Below are positions 4,774 to 9,146 of a DNA stretch of 32,215 nucleotides, in pieces. This DNA comes from a virus: the IMG/VR virus record IMGVR_UViG_3300023180_000230, positions 1-32,215 of that record; one strand, 5' to 3'. The notes beneath the pieces are model-generated. The model was not told the DNA's origin. It made no database searches and saw only the letters and a list, made by a program, of their open reading frames with translations. How positions within the stretch are numbered: the stretch's first letter is position 1; each line of letters starts with the position of its first letter. The position numbers and the translations under genes are program-made.

Positions 4774-5000
4774 TGGTCATAGATATGTACACCGTCTTGA
4801 ATTTTGACAGGTTTACAGTAAGCAGTAACCCTATCTTTAGGGTCCACATAAGCACCGTATGAGTAATTACCAAACTGTTGTGGGATTCTTTTTGCATACC
4901 AAAGACAAGTAGATATGCTTCTAAAATACATAGGGTCTGGTTGAACTTGTCTAAACTCTCCTGTTCCGATAACAACCATCAACATGAAAGCGTGTATCAT
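4770..5000 (-). CDS. Small protein with two cysteines and hydrophobic N-terminus (76 aa)
   Basis: Starts at the ATG that overlaps the tape-measure stop as TAATG, so it is the last gene of the minus-strand operon. The N-terminus (AFMLMVVIGTG) is a short hydrophobic stretch that could be a weak signal or anchor. The rest is compact, with SISTCLWYAKRI and RVTAYCKPVKI; Cys32 and Cys62 could form a disulfide if exported. The pattern PMYFRSxSxCxxxAK...TAYCKPV looks like a small conserved protein of marine T4-like phages without known function. It ends 4 bases inside the convergent plus-strand gene. Confidence 0.75.
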   Translation of the reverse strand: MIHAFMLMVVIGTGEFRQVQPDPMYFRSISTCLWYAKRIPQQFGNYSYGAYVDPKDRVTAYCKPVKIQDGVHIYDH

Positions 5001-7123
5001 TAGAAGGCGCCGAGCATCAATTCATTTTTAGCAGAAGTGTGATGCTGAGTACGAGAAGCAAGATTTGTTGTACTCTGGTTATTCACAGTGCTTGGTGATA
5101 CGTTTGACTGAATGACAGTAGGTGCTTCAGACGAACCAGAATTAGCATTTGCTTCTGCTTGTGCTTGTTGCAAGTCTTGTCCTGATTGTCTAGTTGGAAT
5201 GAGATTAGCAGAGGTATTGTTCATCTCTGCTCTCATAGTTCTAGCACCATTAATTCTATCAATTTCATCATTAGTGTAGAGATATGTAGGAACTTCAACA
5301 CCATCAACTGTTGTAGGGATACCTGCTTCAAATGTCGCAGTCCTTGCAGTACCCATACCCAATGCCTTTGCAAGTTGTTTTGCTCTTAACTTCTTTTCTC
5401 TAGAATTGTATGGTAATGTTAAATCGCCTGTATCTACAATCGTTGTATCTGTGCTTCCTGTAATTCCTGCACCTGTATCAGCAGGAACAGCAGTCTGTGC
5501 TACACTACTACTTACACTAGCACTTGCACCACCTAATGCTTCACGAAGAGATTGAATTCTTGCTACTGCCGCTTCATAATCAATGTCTGGAGATGCTAGA
5601 CCTTTAATTTCTGTTCCTGAACTGAAGAAACCTTCTCCAACTGTTCCGCCTTGAATTGCAAGTTCAAGTGCAGGTATTGAGTTCATCAAATCATCAGTCA
5701 AGTCTTTTATATTAAATCCTGCACCATCAAAACTAATACTAGATAATTTACTAATAGCAATTCTAACTCTATCAATTGCGTCTGCACCTTTATTCAATTC
5801 TTCAGATTTATCTGCAATGGTTATCATTTGCTCAATAGGACTTTCATTACCACTCAGAAAACCCATCAGCGCAGTTCCAGCATCCATAATAGAACCCAGG
5901 AAGTTGCTACCGGAGAACTTTAGAAGTCCTGCCGACAAACTACCCATTGTGTCACTAAATGTTTCTGCTTCTTCTGCGGTTATTTTATCTTTCACACTTG
6001 TAAGTGTTTCTACACTATCAACAATACCATCTGCAAAACCAGGTTTAGCAAGCGAAGCAACTGCAGAACCAACACCAAATACTGCCAGACCAGCACCGAG
6101 TGTAGTCAATGAACCTGCCGCTTCAACAGCGGCGAAGAAACTTAAATCACCAATACCAATAAGAGTTTCTACACTATCATAAATGCGCTGTGCCCAATTA
6201 GCATCACTCATAGTGTCGGCGATTGCTTGACCTGCTCCACCGACTGCAGAACCAACCCCAAACACCGCAAGACCTGCGCCAAGTGTAGTTAATGAACCTG
6301 CCGCTTCAACTGCTCCTAGAAAAGATAAATCACCAATCGATATAAGAGTTGCGACACTATCATATATTTTGTCCGCCCACCCTTCTTTTAGCATTCCTTC
6401 CGCAAGACCTGCACCAAGTGCGCCAACGCCAGAACCAATTCCAAATGCGGCAAGACCTACACCAAGTGTGGTTAAAGATGCCGCCGCCTCAACTGCTGAT
6501 AGAAAAGATAAGTCACCAATTTTTATAAGAGTTGCGACACTATCATATATTTTGTCCGACCAATTATCTTCCATAAATGATTGGCCTATACCATTAGCAA
6601 TAGAACCAATTCCAAATGCGGCAAGACCTACACCTAATGATGCGAGAGTTGCAACTGTCTCTGCAGTATCGGCGCCATCAACTTCATCTGCAATACTTGT
6701 AAGAATGAGAACTTTATCTTTTACTTTCTGTGCATCGAAATCTAAGAATCCTGCAAAAGCGGCAACAAGACCAGCGGCGGCACCAGCGGCGGCAACACCG
6801 AGCATACCCATCATGCCCATGCCTTTTTTACCTTCAGTAGGAGTAACAACAGATTGTTCTGCTGGTCCACCTATAATAGGTGCGCCATCTCCTTCTCTAG
6901 ATGCTTCTGTTGATTGTGCGGAACCGAATGCATCAGGTGCTAGTGATGCTTGTATGGCAGAAATCGCTTCAAGCATTTGTGAATTGACGGCATATAAATC
7001 TTGAATACCACTTTCGATATTACCTAGTATTTGATTACTTTCTATGCCAGATTTGGTATTATCTTTATTCAGAGTTTCTACCGCATCACTCAATCCGCCA
7101 ATAGTTTCTTTTTTGTCTGCCAT
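5000..7123 (-). CDS. 29: Tape-measure protein (gp29-like), built from repeats
   Basis: 707 residues (T4 gp29 has 590). Start ATG 7123 with AGGTAA upstream. Residues 1-65 are helical, 101-126 are a Gly/Met/Ala-rich hydrophobic stretch, and about 134-390 consist of amphipathic repeats of the form W-x-DKIYDSVATLI-x-IGDLSF...AVEAA-x-SLTTLG-x-GLA-x-FG-x-GS with a 61-residue period. Residues 430-530 are helical, and the C-terminal part is Ser/Thr/Gln-rich. Long, Ala/Gly-rich, repeat-based helical composition, its place after the gp26 genes and its size all suit the tail tape measure, which sets tail-tube length and is ejected with the DNA. Direct similarity to T4 gp29 is not visible by eye, so the number is given by role and context. 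Confidence 0.65.
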   Translation of the reverse strand: MADKKETIGGLSDAVETLNKDNTKSGIESNQILGNIESGIQDLYAVNSQMLEAISAIQASLAPDAFGSAQSTEASREGDGAPIIGGPAEQSVVTPTEGKKGMGMMGMLGVAAAGAAAGLVAAFAGFLDFDAQKVKDKVLILTSIADEVDGADTAETVATLASLGVGLAAFGIGSIANGIGQSFMEDNWSDKIYDSVATLIKIGDLSFLSAVEAAASLTTLGVGLAAFGIGSGVGALGAGLAEGMLKEGWADKIYDSVATLISIGDLSFLGAVEAAGSLTTLGAGLAVFGVGSAVGGAGQAIADTMSDANWAQRIYDSVETLIGIGDLSFFAAVEAAGSLTTLGAGLAVFGVGSAVASLAKPGFADGIVDSVETLTSVKDKITAEEAETFSDTMGSLSAGLLKFSGSNFLGSIMDAGTALMGFLSGNESPIEQMITIADKSEELNKGADAIDRVRIAISKLSSISFDGAGFNIKDLTDDLMNSIPALELAIQGGTVGEGFFSSGTEIKGLASPDIDYEAAVARIQSLREALGGASASVSSSVAQTAVPADTGAGITGSTDTTIVDTGDLTLPYNSREKKLRAKQLAKALGMGTARTATFEAGIPTTVDGVEVPTYLYTNDEIDRINGARTMRAEMNNTSANLIPTRQSGQDLQQAQAEANANSGSSEAPTVIQSNVSPSTVNNQSTTNLASRTQHHTSAKNELMLGAF
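6014..6562 (-). repeat. Three tandem 183-bp (61-codon) repeats in the tape-measure gene
   Basis: Units start at Trp188 (6562), Trp249 (6379) and Trp310 (6196) of the protein, exactly 61 codons apart. The DNA is also similar: the plus-strand text AAGAGTTGCGACACTATCAT recurs about 183 bases apart around 6340 and 6525. Weaker copies extend the array on both sides (residues about 134-187 and 363-390). Confidence 0.9.
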
Positions 7124-7131
7124 TTAATTAC

Positions 7132-7464
7132 CTATTTCTTCTTATCGGTGTAAGCATTTGCTCCAAAGTAGGCGGCAACAATTGCTGAAGTAGCAACGAA
7201 GTAAGTCGGAGCAATATCTCCAATAATATTCGCCGCTGTATCATAACCTAACATTGCTGTAATCAAAACCGCCGCTGGATAGTTGAATATACCCATCAAA
7301 GCGAACCATGTCATATATCTCATTGCATCTCTTCTTGCATCCACATCCTCCAGTTCTTTGCGTTTGAACTCAAGGTACATTTCTTGCTCTTTATTACTGA
7401 CCTTACCATCGCCGTTTGTATCGGCAGGATGATGACCAGATGCTTTTATCTCTTCTTCTCCCAT
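7132..7464 (-). CDS. EF-hand protein with two membrane segments (holin-like candidate)
   Basis: 110 residues, ATG 7464 preceded by GGAG in the end of the upstream frame. Residues 15-26 (DTNGDGKVSNKE) are a textbook EF-hand calcium loop with ligands at positions 1, 3, 5, 9 and 12. A charged helix follows (EMYLEFKRKELEDVDARRDAMR), then two hydrophobic segments: WFALMGIFNYPAAVLITAML (about 53-72) and NIIGDIAPTYFVATSAIVAAYFG (about 79-101), and a short KKK end. Two membrane segments, small size and charged tail fit a holin, but the same type of protein appears in marine T4-like phages without assigned role. It lies between the gp26 extension and the tape measure, so a role in tail assembly at the membrane is also possible. 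Confidence 0.8.
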   Translation of the reverse strand: MGEEEIKASGHHPADTNGDGKVSNKEQEMYLEFKRKELEDVDARRDAMRYMTWFALMGIFNYPAAVLITAMLGYDTAANIIGDIAPTYFVATSAIVAAYFGANAYTDKKK

Positions 7465-7467
7465 TTA

Positions 7468-7650
7468 CTATCTCCGTTGTTTTGCTTTTTCATTTTCGTC
7501 TTCAATAAACTGGGTCAACAGAGTTATATAAATTTCCCTCTCCCATGGCATCATATTTTCAAGTTCTGTTAATGAGTATTTATGATGTTGCATTAGTGCA
7601 AAATTAGTTCTCATGTGATTTACTAAATCATCATGCGAGAGGCCTACGCT
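7468..7650 (-). CDS. -1 frame extension of gp26 (predicted frameshift product)
   Basis: After the slippery heptamer at the end of gp26, the -1 frame is open for 60 codons to TAG at 7468-7470: SVGLSHDDLVNH, then MRTNFALMQHHKYSLTEL, then ENMMPWEREIYITLLTQF and a charged end. The text reads as real protein from the first codons after the slip. It contains no start codon until ATG 7614 (a 48-residue version), which has no ribosome binding site. The -1 frame opens only 21 bases before the slip site. The YSLTELENMMPWEREIY motif resembles the small domains appended by frameshift in tail assembly chaperones. The fused product would have 293 residues. Alternatively it is a separate 48-residue gene translated from 7614 by coupling. 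Confidence 0.75.
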   Translation of the reverse strand, partial: SVGLSHDDLVNHMRTNFALMQHHKYSLTELENMMPWEREIYITLLTQFIEDENEKAKQRR

Positions 7651-8348
7651 AAAAAACTTTGTATTCCACTAATTACTCTTTTTTGTTCCTTTCCACACTT
7701 ACTGCATGTATACTCAAGGTCTTTCGATAATCTTGGTAAAGTTGTAAAGAAATTCTTTAGCATATTAAATTGTGATGTTGTCATACTTTCGATGAATGCT
7801 TGAATTTCTTCTTTCGGTGTTGTATCTACATCATAGATATTTCCATCTGCTTCAATGCTTTCAATACAACTCGCAAGAAATTTGAAGTTATCTTCTACAT
7901 TTTCTAAATTAGTTACATCTTCTAAATTTGACATTGTTGGAAATCTCATATTAAGATTAACATTTTCACTAATCTTAATTGTTCTACTAGGAATACTATC
8001 CATATCATATTTAATTTGTGTCAAGTCCAATGTATAGGGTGTTTGTCCTTTACACTCTTCATCAGTACATACTAATCTCAAATCAATTTGCTCACCTACA
8101 GATTTTTCTCTCAATCGTAAGAATATATTCTCGATTTCGAATATAGGTAATGTATTTACATCTACTTGGTCGAAGATGCAATTTGAAATGATTTGCTTCA
8201 TAGCATTCATAACATGTTTTTGTTCTTGTTCTTCTACTGCCAATAGAAGAAGTTTTTGTTCTTTGACCAGAAAAGGTCTGAATTTAATATTTTCACCATT
8301 ATATAATGTCAAGTCATATTGTGGTGCATCAAGTCTTGGTAGTGCCAT
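7644..8348 (-). CDS. 26: gp26-type baseplate hub / tail assembly protein
   Basis: 234 residues (T4 gp26 has 208), ATG 8348 with GGAG upstream. N-terminal YDLTLYNGENIKFRPFLVKEQKLLLLAVEEQEQ matches the start pattern of T4-type baseplate protein gp26. Four cysteines, CTDEEC (94, 99) and CSKC (215, 218), form a likely zinc ribbon. The middle is helical (ENIFLRLREKSVGEQI, DNFKFLASCIESI). The gene ends with AGT TTT TTA GCG TAG, where T TTT TTA is a classic -1 slippery sequence. In T4, genes 26 and 51 lie just before 27-28-29; here gp26 and its -1 extension lie before the tape measure, which suggests a chaperone for tape-measure assembly. Confidence 0.7.
   Translation of the reverse strand: MALPRLDAPQYDLTLYNGENIKFRPFLVKEQKLLLLAVEEQEQKHVMNAMKQIISNCIFDQVDVNTLPIFEIENIFLRLREKSVGEQIDLRLVCTDEECKGQTPYTLDLTQIKYDMDSIPSRTIKISENVNLNMRFPTMSNLEDVTNLENVEDNFKFLASCIESIEADGNIYDVDTTPKEEIQAFIESMTTSQFNMLKNFFTTLPRLSKDLEYTCSKCGKEQKRVISGIQSFLA
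7650..7656 (-). other. Slippery heptamer T TTT TTA (predicted -1 ribosomal frameshift site)
   Basis: In the gp26 zero frame the minus strand reads AGT TTT TTA GCG TAG. T TTT TTA fits X XXY YYZ and is the same heptamer used by HIV-1 gag-pol. After slippage the next codon is AGC and the frame stays open for 60 codons. A possible hairpin (ATG A TGATT-TAGTA-AATCA CAT, 7634-7613) begins 15 bases after the site. Confidence 0.7.
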
Positions 8349-8387: not shown

Positions 8388-9146
8388 TTACCATAAATCT
8401 GCAACGTCTGCTTCCATTCTTGCGAAGTTTGCATCAGACCGTGCTTGTACTGACTGCACAGGATTATATGTTACATAATCGTTCATGACAATATTAGAAC
8501 CAAGTGAACCAATACCAGTCACCGCAGTAGTTTCTTTCCATTTTCTGAATTGCATTGATACTTGAAGTCTTGCTACTTCAGAGGAACTGGCGCTGTATGC
8601 AATTTCAGCAACAGTTTTTGGATATGCTTCTATCAGTGTGCATTGATATTTTGCTCTCAGTGTTCCATTTGCGTCTATGCTATCTTTAGCATCTAGTGCT
8701 AGAATGTGAACAGATGTCACATATTCATTATAGTAATTAGTTTTTGATGTGTCCGGATCAATAATTGTTCTCTGCCAAGCATCAAAAAATTTCTTTACAG
8801 TATATTCTCTATCCATATAAAATGTAAAATTGACAGGTGTGTAACTGTGACCATAAGGAATTTCTCTTCCTGGTCCATACTGTTTATTTAGTTTAGTATC
8901 TATATTCATTGATGGTAGTGATGTTGCTTCACAATAAAGATTTACTAGTCTTTGTCCATTTATTAGTTGCGAGTATCTTCCGTATTGATTTTGACCAGCA
9001 TTGATATCTGAAAATCTAGATAACTGACCTAAATTATTAGCAGATGGACCTCTAGGCACATCAATAACTACCATATACCTATTAGACTTTGCAAGTCCTG
9101 CTCCGTCTCTTCCATGCACTTCTGCAATAAAATTATCTATACTCAT
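8388..9146 (-). CDS. 54: Tail-tube-fold baseplate protein (gp54-type, gp19 possible)
   Basis: 252 residues, starting at ATG 9146 with a 4-base overlap on the upstream gene. The sequence has the T4 gp19 tube-protein pattern: RYMVVIDVP near the N-terminus, a SLPSMNIDT segment, YTPVNFTFYMDREYTVKKFFDAWQRTI, a YVTSVHILALDAKD strand, CTLIEAYPKTVAEIAYS, and LQVSMQFRKWKE. This fold is shared by the tube protein gp19 and by the tube initiators gp48 and gp54. gp48 is present at 10239, no second tube-like gene is nearby, and gp54 is its usual companion, so gp54 is preferred. T4 gp54 has 320 and gp19 163 residues. It would seat the first ring of the tail tube on the hub. Confidence 0.6.
   Translation of the reverse strand: MSIDNFIAEVHGRDGAGLAKSNRYMVVIDVPRGPSANNLGQLSRFSDINAGQNQYGRYSQLINGQRLVNLYCEATSLPSMNIDTKLNKQYGPGREIPYGHSYTPVNFTFYMDREYTVKKFFDAWQRTIIDPDTSKTNYYNEYVTSVHILALDAKDSIDANGTLRAKYQCTLIEAYPKTVAEIAYSASSSEVARLQVSMQFRKWKETTAVTGIGSLGSNIVMNDYVTYNPVQSVQARSDANFARMEADVADLW

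Follow-up and report, generated by a model that had tools for sequence, protein, structure and literature searches.

A predicted -1 frameshift at the end of gene 26 would produce short and long tail assembly chaperones in T4-like phages

Results

Gene 26 is predicted to end in a programmed frameshift

We analysed a virus record of 32,215 bases (IMGVR_UViG_3300023180_000230; the whole stretch is called the window below), in which all the genes at issue are on the minus strand. A -1 frameshift at the end of its gene 26 is predicted to make a pair of tail assembly chaperones (TACs), namely a short form that ends at the gene 26 stop codon and a long form in which gp26 is fused to a 60-residue extension. 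On the basis of sequence comparison, we give this reading a probability of about 90%. It is carried by a conserved slip site, by selection that acts before any start codon, by the lack of a usable start in the window, and by the collinearity of T4 gp51 with the predicted fusion protein. The features concerned are as follows.

7644-8348, minus strand: gene 26, 234 amino acids, the proposed short form (TAC-N, G-like); PF12322 7e-61, phrog_150 1.2e-65
7650-7656, minus strand: -1 slippery heptamer T TTT TTA, read directly, in the phase required for tandem -1 slippage
7468-7650, minus strand: -1 frame extension, 60 amino acids and a stop, the C-terminal part of the proposed long form (TAC-NC, T-like); phrog_634 match, purifying selection
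7612-7614, minus strand: ATG, the first possible start of any kind (ATG, GTG or TTG) in the -1 frame after the slip, at codon 13
7665-7670, minus strand: position of the Shine-Dalgarno-like stimulator, degenerate in the window (AGTGGA, -3.3 kcal/mol), which is among the 6 weak of 65 representatives
7609-7638, minus strand: weak stem-loop predicted by folding, -8.2 kcal/mol, with pairs that are not conserved

We take the window to come from a marine T4-like phage because the nearest phage record by gp26, among the matches listed, is Pelagibacter phage HTVC008M (40% identical). With 206.1 bits against PF12322, for which the curated cut-off is 24.5, gp26 belongs to the T4 gp26 family. The gene ends in ...CAA AGT TTT TTA GCG TAG, with the stop at 7646-7644. 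A first-pass annotation of the window had described the ending AGT TTT TTA GCG TAG, the heptamer at 7656-7650 and the 60-codon -1 frame, all of which proved accurate. The frame had also been said to open 21 bases before the slip, which needs correction: it opens at 7668, 12 nucleotides (nt) 5' of the heptamer, and 21 would fit the distance from the upstream stop codon to the heptamer end. Past the slip it runs for 60 codons to a stop at 7470-7468. As annotated, it contains no start codon with a ribosome binding site, since the first candidate, the ATG at 7614-7612, is without Shine-Dalgarno pairing (+0.6 kcal/mol), and starting there would drop the first 12 residues.

The extension of the window matched phrog_634 ('baseplate hub assembly catalyst', the gp51 family) with an E-value (E) of 8.7e-28 over profile positions 57-115 of 121, and this profile was matched by all 62 of the aligned extension members. 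The tail end of the gp26 profile phrog_150 was matched as well (4.4e-6). In Pfam, the window extension gave nothing above the cut-off, and the extensions of relatives gave only scattered weak matches. When solved structures were searched by sequence, gp26 had no match at E up to 10, and those of the extension were all weak and unrelated (best E 0.23). The model of the extension has three predicted helices, the first of which spans residues 2-22, and the predicted local distance difference test (pLDDT) value across residues 1-10 is 65, which is low confidence.

The slip site is conserved in relatives

Loci of gp26 were gathered from IMG/VR and phage records, and the 174 loci together with the window made 175 sequences. 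A gp26 match was present in 174 of them, and 5 of these 174 were dropped for an incomplete -1 frame, leaving 169. The sample is biased, comprising the best 80 of at least 599 in one gathering and the best 80 of 99 in another, and it includes duplicate contigs (for example L004/L015 and L020/L172; L008 is the window itself), the removal of which left 134 distinct loci. Representatives (65) were defined by gp26 identity below 75% and a length of at least 200 residues, and the alignments A3, A4, A5 and A6 contained 63, 62, 61 and 60 of them, respectively. All hhalign values given below are pairwise.

A phased run of at least 6 T, its first T at a third codon position, within the last 60 nt of gene 26 was present in 168 of the 169 sequences with a complete -1 frame, the single exception being Ackermannviridae phage JA15 (L014). 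By way of background, the rest of gene 26 in the 65 representatives contained 12 runs of at least 6 T in this phase over 45,684 nt. Among the 134 distinct loci, the heptamer was TTTTTTC in 101, TTTTTTA in 18 and TTTTTTT in 15, and the run comprised six T in 119, seven in 8 and eight in 7. The gp26 stop came after exactly one codon past the heptamer in 125 of these loci, and across all 134 the -1 frame stayed open for 54-78 codons beyond that stop. In L084, L090 and L174, the stop was found 24, 24 and 9 nt past the heptamer instead of 3, and the phase of the slip site was preserved.

Codon usage at the slip site also departed from that of the remaining gene. Where the second heptamer codon encodes Phe, it was TTC in 41 of 52 representatives, compared with 185 of 752 Phe codons elsewhere (nominal p 3e-16). 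A related test, which found TTT as the first Phe codon in 65 of 65, was discarded as circular, since every representative came from loci chosen for having the phased T run, which L014 alone lacked. According to PMC4066793, measurable shifting occurs in Escherichia coli on U_UU.U_UU.C and U_UU.U_UU.U with no stimulator present, and H_HH.U_UU.Y forms the efficient class.

The -1 frame appears to be read as a continuation of gp26

In 54 of the 134 distinct loci, the window included, the stretch that begins where the -1 frame opens and ends with codon 12 past the slip contained no ATG, GTG or TTG. Over these first 12 codons the ratio of nonsynonymous to synonymous changes (pN/pS) was 0.31 in 671 pairs from 99 loci, and 0.18 in the 33 pairs, from 33 loci, in which both members are without a start (all pairs having gp26 DNA 72-97% identical); for comparison, it was 0.175 in the later part of the extension and 0.23 in gp26. 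This stretch usually shares its first two codons and one base of the third with gene 26, and leaving out the first three codons gave 0.24 and 0.14, a slightly stronger result. The consensus of the residues before any start, R-I-x-L-x-H-x-x-L-x-N-Y, lies within the predicted helix of residues 2-22.

Ribosome binding sites were also scarce. Pairing with the 16S tail of -5 kcal/mol or lower occurred at the first in-frame ATG in 4 of the 133 loci possessing such an ATG, compared with 48 of 121 gp26 starts. The first-pass annotation had proposed checking whether the heptamer and the -1 frame are conserved while a start codon is not, and measuring selection in that frame; both checks favoured the frameshift, the selection being purifying. 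Since purifying selection precedes any possible start, translation of the -1 frame as a continuation of gp26 is strongly supported at the level of sequence.

A Shine-Dalgarno-like element precedes the slip site, and strong hairpins follow it in some lineages

Many loci carry a purine-rich element (GGAGGG, GAGGG or GAAGGA) whose 3' end is about 9 nt before the heptamer, and 59 of the 65 representatives showed 16S-tail pairing of -4 kcal/mol or lower at a spacing of 5-11 nt. The element exceeds what the protein sequence requires: its mean pairing was -6.97, compared with -4.96 after synonymous resampling by the usage of each gene itself (standard deviation 0.17; lowest of 200 sets -5.39). Glu codons at the element were GAG in 40 of 53 cases, compared with 381 of 1441 elsewhere (nominal p 1.4e-13). 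It was equally strong in the 34 representatives without an early start (-6.95) and the 31 with one (-6.98), and, with about 24 nt between it and an ATG at the fourth codon, it is poorly positioned to serve that codon as a ribosome binding site. In prokaryotes, Shine-Dalgarno elements inside genes are known to stimulate -1 shifting, as stated in passages of PMC4066793 and PMC10885494.

Downstream of the heptamer, the weak hairpin noted in the first-pass annotation is indeed predicted (7638-7609). It begins 11 nt after the heptamer, not 15, and we rejected it as a conserved part of the signal, as its 12 pairs are possible in 12 of the 134 loci at two positions and in 47-113 at the others. A universal downstream hairpin was rejected as well (mean score 3.98 over 65 loci; shuffles 3.43, standard deviation 0.35). 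The mean folding z-score just downstream of the heptamer was -0.95, compared with -0.45 to -0.01 at four control places. The one hairpin measure that stood out was the number of very strong hairpins (score of at least 9), with 12 in the 65 loci, compared with a mean of about 1 and a maximum of 4 in shuffles (100 each of two kinds) and with 0 to 5 at 14 control places within gp26. Among the strongest are the stems of L054, L062, L082, L140 and L148, with about 11-12 pairs and -14.7 to -15.7 kcal/mol, starting 4-5 nt after the heptamer. A fixed-position stem with 8 of 8 pairs was found in 6 of the 18 TTTTTTA loci (L024, L028, L035, L041, L053 and L067), which form one small group, and paired changes occurred in L041 and L067.

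Compared with a tripartite signal of the dnaX type, the heptamer is thus present in the window, the upstream element is strong in 59 of 65 representatives and the hairpin in 12 of 65, and both of the latter are weak in the window. In E. coli dnaX, the Shine-Dalgarno spacing is 10 nt and the shift leads to an early stop. Here the shift would give a longer protein, and the slip site is a T run where that of dnaX is an A run. An internal Shine-Dalgarno sequence upstream, a slippery sequence and a downstream hairpin are the components that the description in PMC5600365 gives for dnaX, and any likeness would lie in these.

T4 gp51 is collinear with the predicted fusion protein

The comparison of the extension with T4 gp51, which the first-pass annotation had suggested, further supports the fusion. 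For T4 gp26 (208 amino acids), hhalign placed the alignment solely within the gp26 portion of the fusion (201 columns, E 9.6e-20), and for T4 gp51 (249 amino acids) the alignment to the fusion extended across 228 columns (probability 96, E 3.2e-9). The values for gp51 were 2.9e-5 (probability 74) against gp26 alone and 2e-4 (probability 47) against the extension alone. T4 gp51 is collinear with the whole fusion, and the extension falls at its C-terminus. T4 gp26 (baseplate hub) is homologous to the short form, and gp51 (hub assembly catalyst) aligns over nearly its full length with the fusion; the difference is that T4 has two divergent genes and that its gene 26 does not end in a slip site.

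In T4, Citrobacter phage Merlin and Proteus phage ABTNLPp2, gene 26 has GAG/GAA TTC TTT as its ending and so lacks the heptamer, which is likewise missing in Tulanevirus AS-gz. All four of these phages have a separate gene 51 of 249-250 amino acids. The first-pass annotation had held that relatives lacking the heptamer and keeping a well-formed ATG and ribosome binding site for the small gene would refute a frameshift; what T4, two Tevenvirinae and the Tulanevirus have is a full-length, fusion-like gene 51, and a partial objection comes from the seven further phages without the heptamer that are described below.

Of 14 other phages compared, seven have the heptamer, namely KVP40, 6E35.1a and AS-szw (Straboviridae), Ps15 (Menderavirus), ACP17 (Busanvirus), Atu_ph04 (Pootjesviridae) and S-B68 (Kyanoviridae). 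The loci without it (L014, L176, L181, L182, L184, L185 and L188) keep a T_TTC or T_TTT tetramer in the same phase, and slippage on this tetramer is possible in these phages. In E. coli, with a pseudoknot, the tetramers U_UU.C and U_UU.U rank next to A_AA.G in the tetramer data cited from PMC4066793.

The first 94 residues of the gp26 model show a middling likeness to tail assembly chaperones

The AlphaFold2 model of gp26 had a pLDDT of 90.2, and its first Foldseek match was the HK97 tail assembly chaperone 2ob9, with a probability of 0.93 but an E of 0.16. Re-alignment to solved structures gave Z-scores of 7.7 for 2ob9, 7.7 for 3fgx and 7.2 for 3klu, which were tied as the first three, followed by 4.7 for 5ir0 and 2.5 for the next; a Z of 7.7 over about 83 residues is middling, and values under 8 can mean a common arrangement. 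We take 3fgx, 3klu and 5ir0 to be relatives of tail assembly chaperones. The matches cover gp26 residues 1-94, and the model suggests a TAC-like fold for this part.

In phage lambda, the G/GT gene lies between the tail tube and tape measure genes, and the slip site is G GGA AAG. The gene pair described here would share this place and differ in having U UUU UUA/C/U as the slip site, in a gp26 that continues for about 140 residues beyond the chaperone-like first 94, and in the Shine-Dalgarno-like upstream element that is conserved in relatives. The proposal of the first-pass annotation that gp26 and its extension are the T4-type counterpart of G/GT gains support from the sequence comparisons and from this middling structural likeness, and gp26 with gp26-extension is best read as the G/GT pair of T4-like phages. 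A further likeness is to TAC-N/TAC-NC of phage Adele (Vandenendeviridae), where the -1 shift is placed on a poly-T motif at the end of TAC-N and the downstream open reading frame (ORF) is usually annotated separately, as reported in PMC12846349. That system belongs to another phage family, and the words Shine-Dalgarno and hairpin are absent from the main text of the paper (PMC12846349).

Neighbouring genes

The genes around gene 26 and the extension are as follows.

8388-9146, minus strand: tail tube-like protein, directly upstream of gene 26; PF23849 1.5e-6, phrog_45 (tail tube) 1.4e-30
7132-7464, minus strand: 110-amino-acid protein with an EF-hand-like stretch and hydrophobic segments, between the extension and the tape measure gene; counterpart in HTVC008M
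5000-7123, minus strand: putative tape measure protein, 707 amino acids; position and size like those of the HTVC008M ORF annotated 'putative tail tape measure'

Gene 26 and the extension were thus found between a tail tube-like gene upstream and the putative tape measure gene downstream. The extension lies upstream of the tape measure gene, as the first-pass annotation stated, but is not adjacent to it, the 110-residue ORF (7464-7132) standing between them. This ORF is 55% identical over 107 amino acids to the ORF at the same place in Pelagibacter phage HTVC008M, and its EF-hand-like stretch, DTNGDGKVSNKE, matched EF-hands weakly (E 0.028, below the cut-off). The putative tape measure protein had no match in the HTVC008M locus at E up to 10, and its identification is positional. 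Matches to HTVC008M were nevertheless obtained for the surrounding genes, namely the 110-residue ORF, the extension, gene 26 and the gene of the tail tube-like protein.

Discussion

Alternative explanations

Several observations weigh against a frameshift, in addition to the middling structural match. The loci share ancestry, and p-values and pair counts are therefore nominal. In E. coli, the heptamers that shift most efficiently do not have UUA as their A-site codon (PMC4066793), and the window variant may be less active for this reason. Both the upstream element (-3.3) and the hairpin are weak in the window, and across relatives the mean hairpin score hardly exceeds that of shuffles, with ten control offsets scoring 1.32 to 5.22 and some as high as the true position. 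The heptamer is absent in JA15, PhaxI, phiA8-29, 207E48.1 and 1.255.O (Ackermannviridae), and in LHE287 and K445, whose records give no family. A TAATG overlap is found in five of these seven, not in PhaxI or phiA8-29, and this is partly adverse as well.

One alternative is that the extension is an independent, gp51-like small gene, translated by reinitiation or translational coupling from a start codon near the gp26 stop. A separate ORF of 45-60 amino acids is indeed annotated in 5 of the 6 records examined first ('hub assembly catalyst' in three, 'hypothetical' in two), 53 of 134 loci have their first in-frame ATG as codon four past the slip, and TAATG or TGATG overlaps make a separately started small protein possible in KVP40, 6E35.1a, Ps15, Atu_ph04 and Cr30. 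The fourth-codon ATG may, however, be a mere residue, because loci without a start mostly have Leu at that codon (41 of 54). Moreover, the residues up to and including the 12th codon are conserved in the startless loci, ribosome binding sites are nearly absent at the first ATG, the heptamer is present with or without a start, the upstream element is equal in both groups, and T4 gp51 unites both parts in one protein. We regard an independent gene as very improbable.

A -1 shift by ribosomes has also to be distinguished from slippage of RNA polymerase on the T run, which would give mRNAs of two lengths. All 134 sites are T runs of 6 to 8, with at least seven T in 15, and a hint of a different mechanism, perhaps confined to T4, is given by the title of Vladimirov et al. 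2022, which counts against ribosomal slipping too. Polymerase slippage is expected to favour long runs. By contrast, 119 of the 134 sites have six T only, the TTC preference at the second codon keeps the run short and so argues against this mechanism, and a Shine-Dalgarno-like element at a fixed spacing points to ribosomes; we consider polymerase slippage very improbable as well. A sequencing or assembly error that splits one gene would account for the frame change itself and nothing more, and since the same layout recurs in 168 of 169 sequences from many assemblies and named phage genomes, its likelihood is close to nil.

A model for chaperone synthesis in T4-like phages

In the proposed frameshift, most ribosomes would end at the gene 26 stop and make the short chaperone (TAC-N), and a minority would step back by one base at T TTT TTA and go on for another 60 codons, yielding gp26-extension (TAC-NC). 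By analogy with lambda G/GT, the tape measure protein would be bound by many copies of the short form and few of the long one, with the extension bringing in subunits of the tail tube. In most of the relatives examined, the Shine-Dalgarno-like element some 9 nt before the heptamer probably promotes slipping, as does a hairpin shortly after it in some lineages. In T4 and its three close relatives studied here, the same two proteins would be made from two genes, 26 (short) and 51 (long). The slipping itself, its rate and the binding partners are inferred. It seems likely that an old, selected, dnaX-like signal (an internal Shine-Dalgarno sequence at a set distance, a U6 heptamer and, for some lineages, a hairpin) sets the ratio of the two chaperones in T4-like phages outside Tevenvirinae and their near relatives, and that T4 lost it once gene 51 had arisen from the frameshift product, which would make gp51 the long chaperone.

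The chaperone role and the poly-T signal in T4-like phages are probably already published, because two papers cite Vladimirov et al. 2022 for them. The passage in the PRFect paper concerns T4-like phages in which the short gene is accompanied by a long fused one encoded separately (PMC10885494), and that in the Adele paper concerns poly-T -1 signals in TAC-N genes of T4-like phages (PMC12846349). What is added here is the selected upstream element and the test of the segment before any start, neither of which was encountered in the literature searched, Vladimirov et al. 2022 being outside that search.

A 2016 review gave the G-T frameshift as widely conserved 'except T4' (PMC5009743). Our results suggest that many T4-like phages keep the G-T frameshift, and they suggest a simple history for T4 genes 26 and 51. 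Annotation would change accordingly in phage genomes: the extension was matched in 594 of 50,697 phage records (E up to 0.01), in some of them via a full-length gene 51, and it is unannotated in NC_019444.1, MW117966.1, MF498773.1 and KY979132.2 and annotated elsewhere as a small separate gene. The conserved upstream element would offer a testable control of the chaperone ratio in these phages.
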